NCBI GenBank assembly: GCA_002840645.1
Contig: PHBO01000001.1
Coordinates: 62,001 to 126,000, forward strand
DNA length: 64,000 nucleotides
Direction of reading: 5' to 3'
From: Candidatus Cloacimonetes bacterium HGW-Cloacimonetes-3
GTDB taxonomy: Bacteria > Cloacimonadota > Cloacimonadia > Cloacimonadales > Cloacimonadaceae
Of this stretch, positions 6,680-53,548 are shown piece after piece (the first letter of the stretch is position 1; the number at the start of each line of letters is the position of its first letter). A program made the position numbers and the translations under genes. The notes beneath the pieces were generated by a model. That model had not been told where the DNA came from. It saw only the letters and a program-made list of their open reading frames with translations, and made no database searches.

Positions 6680-6792
6680 CTTCCTTTCTCCACATCCTTA
6701 ATCAAGTGATCATCCCCCCTTAATCAAGCGTTAATAATTAACGCTTGATTAAGAGGGGATTAAGAAGTGATTAACGCTCTCAAGCAAGGAAG
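6680..6792 (+). repeat. 113-bp MITE-like palindromic repeat, copy 1
   Basis: The element has imperfect terminal inverted repeats (CTTCCTTTCTC at 6680-6690; AAGCAAGGAAG at 6782-6792). Its core is a perfect palindrome with two 17-nt arms around one base (6719-6753; left arm CTTAATCAAGCGTTAAT). Further GATTAAG/CTTAATC words lie between core and ends. A second copy of the same length lies in inverted orientation at 31213-31325 and aligns along the whole element with few differences. No coding capacity. Confidence 0.8.
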
Positions 6793-31212: not shown

Positions 31213-31325
31213 CTTCCTTGCTTGAAGACGTTTATCACTTCTTAATCCCCCCTTAATCAAGCGTTAATTATTAACGCTTGATTAAGGGTAGATGATCACT
31301 TGATTAAGACTTTGAAGCAAGGAAG
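31213..31325 (-). repeat. 113-bp MITE-like palindromic repeat, copy 2
   Basis: Terminal inverted repeats are CTTCCTTGCTT (31213-31223) and AAGCAAGGAAG (31315-31325), perfect over 11 bp. The core palindrome (31252-31286) has two 17-nt arms around one base. It is the reverse complement of the element at 6680-6792, with identical length. No target-site duplication could be fixed by eye. Confidence 0.8.
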
Positions 31326-43982: not shown

Positions 43983-44036
43983 TAACCTTCCCATAACCCT
44001 CCCGTATCGCGATACGGGAGGGTTATGGGAAGGTTA
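43983..44036. repeat. Perfect 54-bp palindrome
   Basis: Two 27-nt arms (43983-44009 and 44010-44036) are exact reverse complements with no spacer; the centre is TATCGCGATA. There is no T-run after it, so it does not look like a terminator. It lies about 110 bp before hsdM. Confidence 0.92.
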
Positions 44037-44144: not shown

Positions 44145-45794
44145 ATGGCAAAAGGCACAGCAAAAACCACCACTGGAGCCAATCTGGGCTTTGAAGCCAA
44201 GCTATGGACTGCTGCCGATAAACTGCGCAGCAATATGGACGCCGCCGAATATAAGCACGTGGTGCTGGGGCTAATCTTTTTGAAATACATTTCCGATTCC
44301 TTCGGAGAGCATCATCAGGAATTGCTTAAAGACCCCATGGCGAATCCCGAAGATAAGGACGAATACACCGCTGCCAACATCTTCTGGGTACCCGCTGAGG
44401 CACGCTGGAGCTTTTTGCAGGGCAAAGCCCACACCACAGAAATCGGCAAGCTGATAGATGAAGCCATGGATGCCATAGAGAAGGACAACAAACGCCTTAA
44501 AAACATCCTACCCAAGAACTATGCCCGTCCGGACCTGGACAAAGCCAAACTTGGCGAACTTATCGACCTGATCGGCACCATCGGGCTGGGTGACAAGGAA
44601 AACCGCAGTAAGGACATTCTGGGCAGAGTATATGAATACTTCTTAAGCGAATTTGCCAGCGCCGAAGGCAAACAGGGCGGGCAATTTTACACCCCGCGCT
44701 GCATTGTGCAGCTGCTGGTTTCCATGCTGGCACCCTTACCCGGAAAAAGGATATACGACCCCTGTTGCGGCTCCGGCGGCATGTTTGTGCAAAGCGAGAA
44801 GTTTGTGGAGGAGCATGGCGGAAAGATTGGAGACATAAGCATCTTTGGCCAGGAATCCAATCCCACCACCTGGAGGCTGGCAAAGATGAACCTTGCCATC
44901 CGGGGCATCGAAGCAGACCTTGGGCAGGAAAATGCCGATAGCTTCCTAAAAGACCTGCACAAAGACCGCCAATTCGATTTTGTAATAGCCAATCCGCCCT
45001 TTAACATGAAGGAATGGGGCGGTGAACAGCTTAAAAAAGACGCCCGCTGGCAATATGGCATCCCGCCCGAAGGCAATGCCAACTACGCCTGGATACAGCA
45101 CTTTATCCGGCACCTTAGCCCCAACGGGCTGGCAGGCTTTGTGCTGGCAAACGGCAGCATGAGCAGTCAGCAATCCGGCGAAGGCGAAATCCGCAAGGCA
45201 ATAATAGAAGCCGATATGGTGGATTGTATGGTAGCTTTGCCGGGGCAGCTTTTCTATTCCACCCAGATCCCTGCCTGTCTATGGTTCCTAACCCGCAGCA
45301 AAACAGGCGGCAAATACCGTGACCGCAGAGGGGAAACCCTGTTTATCGATGCCCGCAACCTGGGGGTGCTGAAAGACCGCGTCCACAAGGAACTTACTGC
45401 AGAAGATGTAGCCAAGATAGCCACCACCTACCACGCCTGGCGGGGTGACAACACCACTCCCCGTCATTCCTCACCTCCCCGTCATTCCAGCGAAGGCTGG
45501 AATCCAGAACAAGAAAAAGAACTGGATACCGTTCTGCAACGGTATGACGAATACAAGGACATCCCCGGCTTCTGCAAAGCAGTTACCACAGCCGAAATAG
45601 CAGCCCAAAACTACATCCTTACCCCCGGACGCTATGTGGGTATGGCACCCAAAGAAAACGAGGATACCGAACCCTTCCAGGACAAAATGAAACGCCTTAC
45701 CGCAGAACTATACGCCCAGTTTGAGGAATCTGCCAGACTGGAAAAAGAGATAAAAGCTAACCTGATTAAGCTTGGATTTGGTGAGGATAAATGA
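44145..45794 (+). CDS. hsdM: Type I restriction-modification methyltransferase subunit HsdM
   Basis: 549 residues. The N-terminal HsdM helical domain ([20 protein letters not shown]) precedes the N6-adenine methylase core with motif [10 protein letters not shown] (D205) and motif IV NPPF (N283). The C-terminal LTPGRYVG motif is also present. It methylates adenine in both half-sites read by HsdS and is required with HsdR for cleavage. Around residues 437-456 an insert reads [20 protein letters not shown], which is translation of a palindromic repeat, placed in the usually short loop before [11 protein letters not shown]. The core motifs are intact, so it is probably active. Its stop overlaps a repeat-derived frame (ATGA). 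Confidence 0.93.
45462..45507. repeat. In-frame palindromic repeat inside hsdM
   Basis: CGTCATTCC occurs at 45462 and again at 45480, where it continues into a perfect hairpin ATTCCAGC-GAAG-GCTGGAAT (45484-45503). The repeat is read through without a stop as [10 protein letters not shown]. Confidence 0.8.
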
Positions 45795-45859: not shown

Positions 45860-45955
45860 GTCATCCCGGACTTGATCCGGGATCCAGAACTTGAGGTTGC
45901 AAATTGCAACCTCAAGAGCATAAAACAACTTGATATCGCAAATTGCGATATCAAG
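45860..45955. repeat. Three-hairpin repeat cluster between hsdM and the HEPN gene
   Basis: A hairpin ATCCCGGA-CTTGA-TCCGGGAT (45863-45883) is followed by two perfect 27-nt palindromes (45890-45916 and 45929-45955). Both palindromes have 13-nt arms around one A. They share CTTGA...GCAA-A-TTGC...TCAAG but differ at three arm positions, each compensated in the other arm. A 63-codon frame runs through here (VIPDLIRDPE signature) and is not annotated as a gene. Confidence 0.88.
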
Positions 45956-45972
45956 TCCACAGGAGATAATTT

Positions 45973-46377
45973 ATGCCTATAATACTATCATCATTGGACA
46001 AAGCCATAAACAGTCTGGACAGAGCCATAATCCGCAGCGTGGCTGCCCCGGAAGATGAAGAACTGCGGGATGCGGTTATCCAACGATTTGAATACACTTA
46101 CGAGCTTTGTTGGAAACTGCTGAAACGCAGACTGGAAAGTGACTCCCCCAATCCTGCCCTGCTGGACACGATGAACTTTAAGGATATGATCCGCTTAGGT
46201 GCGGAAACCGGCTACATTGCCGAACCGCAAAAGTGGTTTGAGTACCGGGAACAGCGTAACAAAACTGTCCACATCTATGATGAAAGGGAAGCAAAGAAAG
46301 TGTATCAGGCGGTATTGGGCTTTATCACCGATGCTAAGCTGCTGTACGAAAACCTGCTGATTGGAAACGATGATTGA
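45973..46377 (+). CDS. HEPN-type HI0074/NTase-substrate-binding protein (HepT-like toxin)
   Basis: 134 residues, all helical, matching the HI0074 / NTase_sub_bind family (LRDAVIQRFEYTYELCWKLL near the middle). The HEPN ribonuclease motif Rx4HxY is present as RNKTVHIY (R95, H100, Y102). In characterised MntA-HepT pairs the Tyr of this motif is AMPylated by the partner nucleotidyltransferase to silence the RNase. Here the partner domain is encoded by the next gene, overlapping by 8 nt (ATG 46370 versus stop 46377), but fused to HsdS. AGGAG lies 7 nt before the ATG. Whether it works as a toxin or only as a substrate-binding partner cannot be decided from sequence. Confidence 0.85.
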   Translation: MPIILSSLDKAINSLDRAIIRSVAAPEDEELRDAVIQRFEYTYELCWKLLKRRLESDSPNPALLDTMNFKDMIRLGAETGYIAEPQKWFEYREQRNKTVHIYDEREAKKVYQAVLGFITDAKLLYENLLIGNDD

Positions 46378-47896
46378 TCTTGCCCCTGCATATCTGGAAA
46401 TAGTTCGAAAAATACTTAGGGAAATTGTCCCCAATGCCAAAGTATGGGCGTTTGGCTCACGTGTAACTGGCACTGCCAAGGAGTTTTCCGATCTGGATTT
46501 GGCTATTGATATGGGTAGTCCCATTCCGGTAGCTACCCTGTGCTTGCTGAAAGATGCCTTTTCCGAATCTGACCTGCCGATTAAAGTGGATATTGTTGAT
46601 TGGCAAGCGATATCGGAGGAATTTATAGAAGCGGTTAAAGAAAACCGGTTTGATTTATACCGATTTAAGCTTTGTGATTTATGCAATTCGATAGATTATG
46701 GCTATACTGCTTCATCCACATCAGAAGATACAGGTATTAGATTTCTTAGAATTACTGACATTGTCCAAGAACATGTAGACTGGAGTACTGTACCTTATTG
46801 TTGCATAACCCCCAAAGACACGGAGAAGTATAGATTACTTAACGATGATATAGTAATTGCTCGTACCGGTGCATCGACAGGCGCATGCTTACATATATCA
46901 AATCCACCTTTAGCTGTCTTTGCTTCATATTTAGTAAGGTTGAGAATCAATAGCACGATTGCGGATTCAAGGTATATATACTATTGTTTAAAATCAGAAG
47001 GTTTCAATTCTTTCTTGCAAGGAGTTTTAGGAGACAAGTCAGCACAACCAAACGCAAGTGCTTACACAATGACCCAATTTGAGTTTTACCTCCCTCCCCT
47101 CGAAACCCAAAAAGAAATAGCACATATCCTTGGTACATTGGACGACAAAATAGAACTTAACCGCAGAATGAACAAAACCCTTGAAGAAATAGCCCACGCC
47201 ATCTTTAAGCACTGGTTCATTGATTTTGAATTCCCCAATGCTGAAGGTAACCCCTACAAATCATCCGGTGGAGAAATGATAGATTCGGAATTGGGACTGC
47301 TTCCCAAAGGGTGGAGAGTAGTGAAATTAGGAACTAAAGTAGATATTATTAAAGGCGTCTCATACTCAAGTTATGAATTATCAGAATCAACAACTGCTAT
47401 GGTTACACTAAAGTCATTCAATAGAGGTGGAGGGTACAAATCGGATGGTCTCAAAGCATACACTGGTAAATTCAAACCTGAACAAGTTTTAAAAACAGGC
47501 GACTTGGTTATTGCATGTACAGATGTTACACAAAATGCCGATGTTATAGGGCGTCCGGCTATTATTCGAAAGAGCAGAGATTACGAAACTTTGGTTGCTT
47601 CTTTAGACATAATAAAATTACTGCCTAAATCAGAAGATGTTCCTCTCTCATATCTTTACTTTATGACAAATTCGGAAGTATTTAATCATCACATGTTTTC
47701 ACATTCCACAGGTACAACAGTTCTACATCTTGCTAAAGAAGCCATTCCTTCGTTTCAGTATGCACAACCTAGCTTTGAGATTATGAATGTTTTTGGTCGT
47801 ATTGCACATGCAGTACTGGATTTAATAAATACTAACGAAAATGAAAACAATATACTTTCCGACTATAGAGATAATCTACTACATATGATATTCTAG
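46370..47896 (+). CDS. Fusion of MNT nucleotidyltransferase (MntA-like) and type I specificity subunit HsdS
   Basis: 508 residues from ATG 46370 (TTG 46361 is an alternative). Residues 1-98 are a complete minimal nucleotidyltransferase: FGSRVTGTAKEFSDLDLAI gives G29-S30 and the metal ligands D41 and D43; KVDIVD supplies the third acid (D74). Without a gap, residues ~99-508 form a full HsdS. TRD1 starts KLCDLCNSIDYGYTAS...FLRITDI. The central conserved region is LPPLETQKEIAHILGTLDDK plus FKHWFIDFEFP. TRD2 starts LPKGWRVVKLG, and a C-terminal helix follows. HsdS reads the bipartite DNA site for HsdM/HsdR. The fused domain is the expected AMPylating antitoxin of the overlapping upstream HEPN gene. 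The TRDs are AT-richer than hsdM/hsdR, as usual for exchanged modules. Confidence 0.87.
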   Translation: MIDLAPAYLEIVRKILREIVPNAKVWAFGSRVTGTAKEFSDLDLAIDMGSPIPVATLCLLKDAFSESDLPIKVDIVDWQAISEEFIEAVKENRFDLYRFKLCDLCNSIDYGYTASSTSEDTGIRFLRITDIVQEHVDWSTVPYCCITPKDTEKYRLLNDDIVIARTGASTGACLHISNPPLAVFASYLVRLRINSTIADSRYIYYCLKSEGFNSFLQGVLGDKSAQPNASAYTMTQFEFYLPPLETQKEIAHILGTLDDKIELNRRMNKTLEEIAHAIFKHWFIDFEFPNAEGNPYKSSGGEMIDSELGLLPKGWRVVKLGTKVDIIKGVSYSSYELSESTTAMVTLKSFNRGGGYKSDGLKAYTGKFKPEQVLKTGDLVIACTDVTQNADVIGRPAIIRKSRDYETLVASLDIIKLLPKSEDVPLSYLYFMTNSEVFNHHMFSHSTGTTVLHLAKEAIPSFQYAQPSFEIMNVFGRIAHAVLDLINTNENENNILSDYRDNLLHMIF

Positions 47897-50281: not shown

Positions 50282-53200
50282 ATGTTAGAAAAACCGGTTG
50301 AATCAGTCGCATTGCATATCCTGCAAGAGTTGGATTATGCCACCCACAGCTATCCCCGGCTGTTGGCAGAGGATTGCGCCATAGTGCTTATCCGGGAAGA
50401 TATCTTGCGGGATAAGCTGCGTTTGCTTAATCCCATGCTGCCGGAGGAATGCATTACTGAAGTGGTAAGGATAATAAAGCTGATGCAGCACCCCTCGTTA
50501 ATCCGCAATAACATGGCGTTTCATAAGCTGTTGGTGGAAGGTGTTCCGGTTGCTTACCGTCAGGATGGCAGAATAGTAAATACCGCTGCAAAGCTGATAG
50601 ATTTTGCCCTGGTGGATGATAACCACTTTATGGCGGTAAGCCAGATGACGGTGGTGGAAGGGCAGTATGTCCGGCGACCGGATATTGTTATTTTTGTTAA
50701 TGGCATCCCCCTTGCGGTTATCGAGGTGAAGAATCCTTCGGACGAAAAGGCAAGCATCTGGAGCGCATATAACCAGTTGCAGACCTATATGGCACAGATA
50801 CCTTCGCTGTTTGTGTATAATGCGCTGTTGATTGTTACGGATGGCATAGAAGCCAGGCTGGGGACGGTAAGTTCGGGCAGAGAATGGATGATGCCTTGGC
50901 GGAGGATAGATGATGCGGGTGAAAAGACTGGATTCCAGACTAAATCTGGAATGACGGGAGAGGGTGGCGCAGGATACCAATCCTGCGAAGGTAATAGTTC
51001 CGCAAGATTGGCATCTTGCGCTACGGGGGAAGGGGCTGGATTCCCGACTGAATCGGGAAAGACAAATGCGGAAGCGGGAATGCAAAGAGATAACTCTGGA
51101 TGCCCGACTGGATCGGGAAAGACAAAAGCGGAAGAGGGAATGACGGGCAATGGTACTTCTTATGTATCTCAGATGGAAGTGCTGCTGAAGGGTGTATTTG
51201 ATAAGCACAATATCCTAAGCCTGCTTCGCTACTTTATTGTATTTGAAGCTACTAAAGAACGCATCATCAAAAAGGTGGCGGGTTATCACCAGTTCCATGC
51301 GGTGAATGTGGCTGTGGAAAAGACGGTGCAAGCCATTTCTGCAAAGGGTGATAAACGTTGCGGGGTGGTGTGGCATACGCAGGGCAGCGGTAAGAGCCTT
51401 ACCATGGCTTTCTATGCGGGCAGGATTATTCAGCATCCGGCGATGGAGAATCCCACCATTGTAGTTTTGACAGACAGGAACGATCTGGACGACCAGCTAT
51501 TCCGCACCTTCAGCGCGTGTAAGGATCTGATCCGCCAAAACCCCAGACAGGCAGAGGACAGGCAGGATTTACAGCAGCTCTTAAGAGTTGCATCAGGTGG
51601 GGTTATCTTTACTACCATTCAGAAGTTTATGCCTGAAGATAGGGGCGGTGAATATCCCTGTTTAAGCGAACGGCGCAATATTGTGGTGATAGCGGATGAA
51701 GCGCACCGCAGTCAGTATGATTTTATCGATGGCTTTGCCAAAAACATGCGGGACGCCTTGCCCAACGCCAGCTTTATCGCCTTTACGGGCACGCCAGTGG
51801 AGCTAACCGACCGGAATACCAGAGCTGTGTTTGGTAATTATATAAGTATTTACGATATCCACCAGGCAGTGTTGGATAATGCCACCGTGCCTATCTATTA
51901 CGAAAGCAGATTGGCGCGTCTGGAGCTAAACGAACGGGAAAAGCCCAATCTGGATAGCGAATTTGAAGAGCTTACCGAAGATAAAGAGCCCGATGACAGG
52001 GAAAAGCTGAAAAGCAAATGGGCAGCCCTGGAAGCTGTGGTTGGTGCGGATAAACGCATAAACATGGTTACAGAAGACCTGCTGAAGCATTGGGAAGCCC
52101 GCAGCGAGATTATAGAAGGCAAAGCTATGATAGTGTGCATGAGCAGGCGTATCTGTGTGGATATGTATAATGCCATACTAAAGCTTAAGCCGGATTGGGG
52201 CTCTGAAGATGATAAAGAGGGCGTGCTAAAGGTGGTAATGACCGGGGCACCTGCAGATCCTTTGGATTATCAGCAGCATATCCGCAGCAAAGAAAGGCGG
52301 GATAAAATAGCAGAGAGATTTAAGGACCCGCTGGATAAGCTTAAAATTGCCATAGTGCGCGATATGTGGCTAACGGGTTTTGATGTGCCCTGTCTTAATA
52401 CGATGTATGTGGATAAACCTATGCACGGGCATGGCTTGATGCAGGCTATTGCCAGGGTAAACAGAGTGTATAAGGACAAACCCGGTGGCTTGATTGTGGA
52501 TTACCTGGGGCTGGCAGAGGAACTGAAAAAAGCATTAAAGACCTATACCCAATCCGGAGGAAAAGATACCGTAACCATAGATCAGAATGAAGCGCTGGCA
52601 GCCTTAATGGAGCAATACGAGCAATGCCTAAGGCTGTTTGATGGTTTTGATTGGTGCATCTGGCTAAGCGGCACACCCCAGGAAAAGCTGAATATCATAG
52701 CTCCGGCGCAGGAATTTATCTTGGCGCAGGAAAATGGGAAGAGCAAACTGATAGAGACTGTATCGCGCTTAACCAAGGCATTTGCTTTGGCAGTACCGCA
52801 CGATAAAGCACTGGAGTTACGGGAGTGTGTAGCCTTCTTCCAAACGATAAAGGCAGCCATTATCAAAGCCGGACGCGATTACCACGATGGTGGCCTGGGA
52901 ATGGAAACTGCAATTAAACAATTGGTTTCCAAGGCTATCAGCAGTGACAAGGTGGTGGATATCTTCGAGGCAGCGGGCCTAAAGAAACCGGATATCTCTA
53001 TTTTATCGGATGAGTTTTTGGAAGACGTGAAAAACATGCCCTATAAAAACCTGGCGGTGGAATTGCTGAAGAAACTGCTTAATGATGAGATAAAAGCCAG
53101 ATTCCGGCGAAATGCCGTGCAAACCAGGGCTTTCTCTGAGATGCTGGCAGAAAGCATCCGTAAATACCAGAACAGAACTATCGAAGCTGCCAAAATTATC

Positions 53201-53548
53201 CAGGAGCTTATTGGAATCGCCAAAGAGATTAGAGAAGCTGAAAACAGGGGAGATAAACTGCATCTAAGCGATGATGAAGTAGCCTTCTATGATGCCCTGG
53301 AAACTAATGATGCGGCTGTGATGGTGCTGGGTGATGAGACATTAAAAACAATTGCTAGGGAACTAATAGAGACTGTGCGCAAAAACGTTACCATAGATTG
53401 GGCAATTCGTGAACAGGCAAGAGCTAAACTGCGGGTGATGGTAAAACGCATCCTGCGTAAATATGGCTATCCACCCGATAAGCAAGAAAAAGCTACCGAT
53501 ATGGTAATTGAACAAGCGGAACTGATCTGCGGGGATATGGTAGGCTAA
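50282..53548 (+). CDS. hsdR: Type I restriction endonuclease/translocase subunit HsdR
   Basis: 1088 residues. The N-terminal PD-(D/E)xK nuclease is visible as [19 protein letters not shown] (D134, E148, K150). The SF2 translocase follows with Walker A TQGSGKS (K371), DEAH box ADEAHRSQ (D472-H475), motif III FTGTP and motif [12 protein letters not shown]. The C-terminal helical HsdR region binds HsdM/HsdS. Between DGIEARLG...MPWRRIDD and [15 protein letters not shown], normally a short connection, there is an insert of about 75 residues (213-290) that is translation of palindromic repeats. All catalytic motifs are intact. Little ribosome site is visible, so translation may be coupled to the upstream gene 12 nt away. 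Confidence 0.93.
50930..51145. repeat. Array of palindromic repeats in frame inside hsdR
   Basis: At least five hairpins follow each other. ATTCCAGA-CTAAA-TCTGGAAT (50932-50952). CGCAGGAT-ACCA-ATCCTGCG (50968-50987). CGCAAGAT-TGGC-ATCTTGCG (51001-51020). TTCCCGA-CTGAA-TCGGGAA (51041-51059). CCCGA-CTGGA-TCGGG (51103-51117). Units end in TGACGGG/AGACAAA words. The second and third differ by a compensated base pair. The frame stays open throughout. Confidence 0.88.

Follow-up and report, generated by a model that had tools for sequence, protein, structure and literature searches.

Twin palindromes in a type I restriction locus belong to a pan-bacterial family of probable ORF6N recognition sites

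The window analysed here is a stretch of 64,000 nucleotides from a Candidatus Cloacimonetes genome. It carries a type I restriction locus in the order hsdM, two palindromes, a HEPN-like gene, an MNT-HsdS fusion, two DUF genes and hsdR, with the following features:

44145..45794, plus strand: hsdM, type I DNA methyltransferase subunit (PF02384, PF12161)
45861..45886, no strand: REP-like imperfect palindrome GTCATCCCGGACTTGATCCGGGATCC, directly upstream of palindrome 1 and unrelated to it in sequence
45890..45916, no strand: palindrome 1, CTTGAGGTTGCAA-A-TTGCAACCTCAAG; class TTGCAA with G at base 7, like an ORF6N gene of the same genus (genome G007)
45928..45956, no strand: palindrome 2, (A)CTTGATATCGCAA-A-TTGCGATATCAAG(T); class TATCGCAA, as in one half of the site in another ORF6N gene of the same genus (genome G003)
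45943..45983, plus strand: promoter-like matches TTGCGA-16-GATAAT and TCCACA-16-TATAAT, consensus matches only, the first overlapping palindrome 2
45973..46377, plus strand: HEPN-like gene (NTase_sub_bind, PF08780)
46361..47896, plus strand: MNT nucleotidyltransferase domain fused to an HsdS specificity domain (PF01909, PF01420)
50282..53548, plus strand: hsdR, type I restriction subunit

The HEPN-like gene directly precedes the MNT-HsdS fusion, which places a HEPN/MNT pair within the type I restriction locus. Between the end of palindrome 2 and the HEPN start codon lie 16-17 bp that contain a ribosome-binding site.

Both palindromes are perfect and odd-centred. Palindrome 1, CTTGAGGTTGCAAATTGCAACCTCAAG (45890-45916), has two 13-nt arms around a single base (13+1+13), as does palindrome 2, CTTGATATCGCAAATTGCGATATCAAG (45929-45955), which one extra pair extends to 45928-45956 (14+1+14). 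They are separated by a 12-nt gap, or 39 bp from start to start, and three half-site positions, 6, 7 and 9, distinguish their arms (GGTT versus TATC), each difference being mirrored in the opposite arm. The initial annotation had described two perfect palindromes 12 nt apart with three compensated arm differences, and the sequence confirms this description; an outcome with two matches arose in none of 100 dinucleotide shuffles of the window. It had further proposed a search for more copies with covarying arms. There are none in the 2.68 Mb genome, where only palindromes 1 and 2 match at 0 mismatches and the remaining three matches have 3 mismatches each and are non-palindromic; compensated relatives were, however, found in other genomes. 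An identity of the pair as REP or BIME elements was rejected, since many copies would be needed and there are just two, side by side.

The window pattern is present in 8 of the 125 genomes of the phylum, and a reversed control pattern in 0. In most of the other genomes with the pattern the palindrome lies within the coding sequence of an ORF6N domain, at ...L[RK]SQ[FI][AV]TSS..., and ORF6N sites can be described as 27-bp odd-centred palindromes around CAA-W-TTG with a half-site near YTTGARRTYRCAA, a description that fits the window pair. A scan of 84,980 species genomes, using a pattern that leaves out the commonest coding flank, returned at least 118 stretches from many phyla. Among the classified sites in cellular loci, 123 are in ORF6N coding sequence and the rest are mostly near ORF6N genes (some loci overlap and not all are independent); many noncoding copies lie a few tens of bases upstream of ORF6N start codons. 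In the Bacteroidota class around G130, the strict pattern occurs in 23 of 149 genomes, of which 22 are ORF6N-positive, compared with 73/149 overall. Sampling by protein gave the same location: 126 of 132 distinct ORF6N (PF10543) domains have a palindrome of at least 10/13 at one place, 39 of them perfect, and the palindrome score is never above 10 in the remainder of these genes. Genome comparison by computation places the 27-bp palindromes in a pan-bacterial family located in and around ORF6N genes. The number of copies per genome is very low, the profile is symmetric and no conserved tag was found outside the palindrome across the family sites. A general association of ORF6N with hsd genes was not seen, such loci being a minority, and the literature searched holds almost nothing on ORF6N function.

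Recoding places the constraint at the level of nucleotides. The mean palindrome score in 51 ORF6N genes is 11.8, compared with 5.4 under synonymous recoding, and a score of at least 12/13 is reached in 36 of them where 0.01 is expected. Five ORF6N genes keep the palindrome though it is read in another frame (ELVTNCDQF rather than LRSQIVTS). Pairing between the arms is seen in 91% of cells; shuffling arms between genes lowers it to 65% (maximum 70%). These figures are not based on sites picked by symmetry score, a choice that biases pairing.

Compensated changes in a palindrome could point to a stem, and RNA hairpins in the leader and in coding mRNAs could control translation, termination or processing. 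The stems are strong in prediction, the minus strand of the window leader has a terminator-like match, and the predicted fold of the leader RNA is far more stable than expected (z = -7.9), a consequence of the palindromes as such. However, an Rfam search of the leader gave no match, and mismatches on the coding strand are as often A.C (28) as G.U (28), with no preference for G.U within ORF6N genes either; the symmetry of the arms is therefore not that of an RNA stem. Base identity, beyond mere pairing, also tracks protein residues, as described below. An RNA hairpin is unlikely, and we regard control through such hairpins as very improbable. The initial annotation had offered a choice between selected hairpin or cruciform structure and spread by a copying process; what stands is that the symmetry is constrained, whereas the RNA hairpin is not supported by the mismatch counts, nor spread within the genome by the presence of only two copies. 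Its further idea, that the pair sets the ratio of toxin to R-M subunits, is a possibility. A palindrome with compensated changes need not signify RNA structure.

Covariation was computed as mutual information between the base pairs of the palindrome and those protein columns that lie outside the palindrome-coded stretch. Residues 41, 38 and 37 of ORF6N covary with bases 10/9 and 7/6: residue 41 with base 10 (z 38) and base 9 (z 26), residue 38 at z 20 and 16, and residue 37 with base 7 (z 19). The loop residues 76-80 covary with bases 3-5 (z 16-26); this loop adjoins the palindrome-coded residues, so that share of the covariation could be local. Columns beyond the helix and the loop have no notable covariation. 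The relation is simple enough to be read off. At residue 41, Q goes with CA at bases 9-10 in 53 of 55 cases, E with CG in 38 of 39, K with TC in 4/4, L with TG or TT in 4/4 and R mostly with GC, and K at residue 37 goes with G at base 7 in 80/80. Among 263 pairs of ORF6N genes that are at least 60% alike elsewhere but differ at residue 41, none has the same bases 9-10, whereas distant pairs (below 40%) with the same residue 41 agree in them in 90% of 211. In 84/84 genes the Ser-67 codon has a silent third base that tracks residue 41. Contact within the protein does not account for a silent base, and the code also holds in the other frame. In the independent loci of the genome scan the half-sites obey the same code (E 82/92, Q 57/72, R 10/14, K 4/4), and it is also true of named plasmids from Bacteroides ovatus, Sulfuricurvum kujiense and Butyrivibrio proteoclasticus. 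The last has a perfect site 42 bp upstream of the ORF6N start whose unusual arms equal those of the internal site, ATCGAGATGCCAA. The covariation suggests a readable DNA-recognition code for the ORF6N family, and the arms appear to covary because the protein reads them. The literature searched gave no description of a site whose bases covary with a protein that the site itself partly encodes.

An AlphaFold model of ORF6N (pLDDT 84) shows residues 36-45 as the second helix of a helix-turn-helix, 70-82 as a low-confidence loop and 100-137 as a long helix. The best solved folds are the Ski/SnoN/Dachshund DNA-binding domains, a weak resemblance with an E-value that is not significant, and a sequence search against solved structures returned no relative.

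Taken with the code, these features argue that the palindromes are quite probably DNA recognition sites of ORF6N-domain proteins. With its predicted helix-turn-helix, wing-like loop and long coiled coil, ORF6N probably binds as a homodimer to a pair of identical half-sites with CAA-W-TTG at the centre. Half-site bases 6-10 would be set by residues 37, 38 and 41 of the helix, and loop 76-80 would go with bases 2-5. A change of specificity would then alter both half-sites together and leave the arms compensated; covariation of a dimeric protein's specificity residues with the bases is the better-supported cause of such changes. As a cognate site lies inside each ORF6N coding sequence, the protein may control its own gene by a road-block. 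We infer physical binding, repression and activity in the source genome from the sequence comparisons.

Template switching during replication could copy one arm onto the other and keep palindromes perfect without selection. It is known to homogenise inverted-repeat arms in coding DNA and so to produce compensated changes (PMC8604942, PMC8794818), and the absence of a G.U bias agrees with it. It leaves unexplained, however, the concentration of sites with a fixed CAAWTTG core in the ORF6N genes of many phyla, and their covariation with a helix whose codons are about 80 nt distant. As the whole explanation we consider template switching very improbable, though it may help a change to spread from arm to arm.

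The half-sites of the window pair match ORF6N genes of the same genus. One half of the site in the G003 gene is the same, base for base, as the half-site of palindrome 2, CTTGATATCGCAA. That of palindrome 1, CTTGAGGTTGCAA, which belongs to the rare TTGCAA class, agrees in 12 of 13 bases with one half of the site in the G007 gene. In G003 a site 20 bp upstream of the ORF6N start combines both kinds of half, CTTGAGATCGCAA and CTTGAGGTTGCAA. No PF10543 match, and hence no ORF6N gene, was found in the source genome (G000, 97.5% complete), while ORF6N genes are present at the hsdM/hsdS junction of relatives (G076, G083 and G086); the pair is therefore either a working double operator or the scar of a lost gene. 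The window pair most likely represents twin ORF6N operators in the HEPN/MNT-hsdS leader, working or formerly so. Being of the classes of two same-genus ORF6N proteins, the sites would act as operators for regulators that arrive on mobile DNA. That an ORF6N gene with flanking sites was lost from the junction, leaving idle sites behind, is rather doubtful: it accords with the junction genes of the three relatives and with the lack of a detected gene in the source genome, but neither copy has lost its perfect symmetry, the two belong to different classes, and palindrome 2, only 17 bp from the HEPN start, overlaps a promoter-like match. A scar would touch only what the pair does in the window at present, and does not conflict with the palindromes being ORF6N sites. 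Across the phylum, hsdM/hsdS junctions (L449, L451, L452, L455, L457, L458) hold varied accessory genes, ORF6N included; others look like RhuM, KilA-N and Bro-N by reading of the sequences.

Sites outside ORF6N coding sequence follow the code less closely. Among half-sites at most 150 bp upstream of ORF6N, 43 of 90 follow the code of the nearest protein, a weak excess over the 29.9 +- 5.3 expected. Plain arm similarity between neighbouring copies and the local ORF6N gene is not clearly above shuffling, whereas information-weighted similarity is (1 of 2000 shuffles). Such sites may be targets of other ORF6N proteins, either from the same cell or from visiting elements. At four loci (L097, L147, L148, L069) three to six ORF6N-type palindromes form an array with a spacing of 30-60 bp that is often 39 or 42; each copy is symmetric and the arms differ between copies, as in the window pair. 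Tandem sites show marginal helical phasing (Rayleigh p about 0.015 at 10.5 bp), which in-frame spacing confounds.

Phage contigs contribute about 37 sites outside ORF6N, in leaders and within genes. Chance was rejected as their origin, with 44 stretches compared with 4 and 0 for permuted palindromic patterns. Of the phage records tested, 19/24 are without ORF6N, many of them being fragments. Arm coupling at positions 1, 6 and 7 is slight in phage sites, which tells against the ORF6N reading, as do the weak fit of noncoding sites and the lack of a detected ORF6N gene in the source genome. In a phage helicase-like gene (L209, L214, L217; relatives L243-L322) an ORF6N-type palindrome replaces a similar coding stretch, apparently more than once. 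The palindrome leaves the length of the helicase family unchanged, and ORF6N genes that lack it are likewise of the same length there; in the helicase the site was therefore not inserted. Where this could be checked, nothing pointed to an inserted coding palindrome of the RPE kind, there being no gain in length over relatives without the element.

These observations bear on the proposal of a mobile or selfish palindromic element (of RPE, WPE or REP type) whose insertions would fall within or close to ORF6N genes and, at random, elsewhere. Coding copies in different frames, tandem arrays at 30-60 bp spacing and orphan phage copies would suit such an element, yet the copy number per genome is very low and the place in the ORF6N gene constant, the phage helicase site came without a change of length, and the base classes are protein-specific. 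We consider it most improbable. The known coding palindromic elements RPE, WPE and PARCEL (PMC2996958) resemble ORF6N sites as palindromic coding DNA in more than one reading frame with horizontal transfer; unlike them, ORF6N sites are only 27 bp long and occupy one fixed place in one gene family, with bases that track protein residues. REP, BIME and dispersed intergenic palindromes are likewise short and sometimes paired or arrayed between genes, whereas ORF6N sites are low in copy number, odd-centred, perfect, tagless in their flanks and tied to ORF6N.

As recognition sites of ORF6N proteins, the palindromes are best compared with those of dimeric helix-turn-helix repressors, such as phage immunity repressors or LacI with its road-block operator O3 (PMC3711431). 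Common to both are a palindromic site, a helix-turn-helix (predicted in ORF6N), a probable dimer helix, sites before the own gene and a specificity that varies among relatives. Unlike these repressors, nearly all ORF6N members have the cognate site within the sequence that codes for the DNA-binding domain, and across phyla this site covaries with the protein. With the KilA-N, Bro-N and RhuM regulators of phages and mobile elements, ORF6N shares genomic places, the hsdM/hsdS junction included (by reading). We tentatively suggest, as a possibility somewhat short of even, that the ORF6N proteins make up a large and diversifying DNA-binding family, each member encoding its cognate site within its own DNA-binding domain and following a simple residue-to-base code. 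Site copies in other genes, in phages and in restriction loci would then link mobile elements in a network of self and non-self recognition, akin to the immunity groups of phages.

Genes of the ORF6N family are known from many bacterial phyla and are carried by plasmids and phages or lie next to restriction systems, yet the family has barely been studied. The covariation provides a testable code, a likely function for ORF6N and predicted targets in any genome. If an operator lies inside the gene of its own DNA-binding domain, control would travel along with the gene, and the evolution of protein and site would be coupled in one stretch of DNA.

Further repeats were seen in the window. A loopless 54-bp perfect inverted repeat with 27-bp arms (TAACCTTCCCATAACCCTCCCGTATCGCGATACGGG...) lies at 43983-44036, about 110 bp upstream of hsdM. 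Reading of translations revealed an in-frame stretch of 15 protein letters resembling a translated REP-type repeat in hsdM (45450-45500), and repeated in-frame GFPTESGKT-like units with a REP-type look in hsdR (50900-51210). A second perfect palindrome family, TTAATCAAGCGTTAAT-N-ATTAACGCTTGATTAA, is found at 6719-6753 and 31250-31288 and has 16 copies in the genome; its arms are nearly invariant, in contrast to those of the ORF6N sites.
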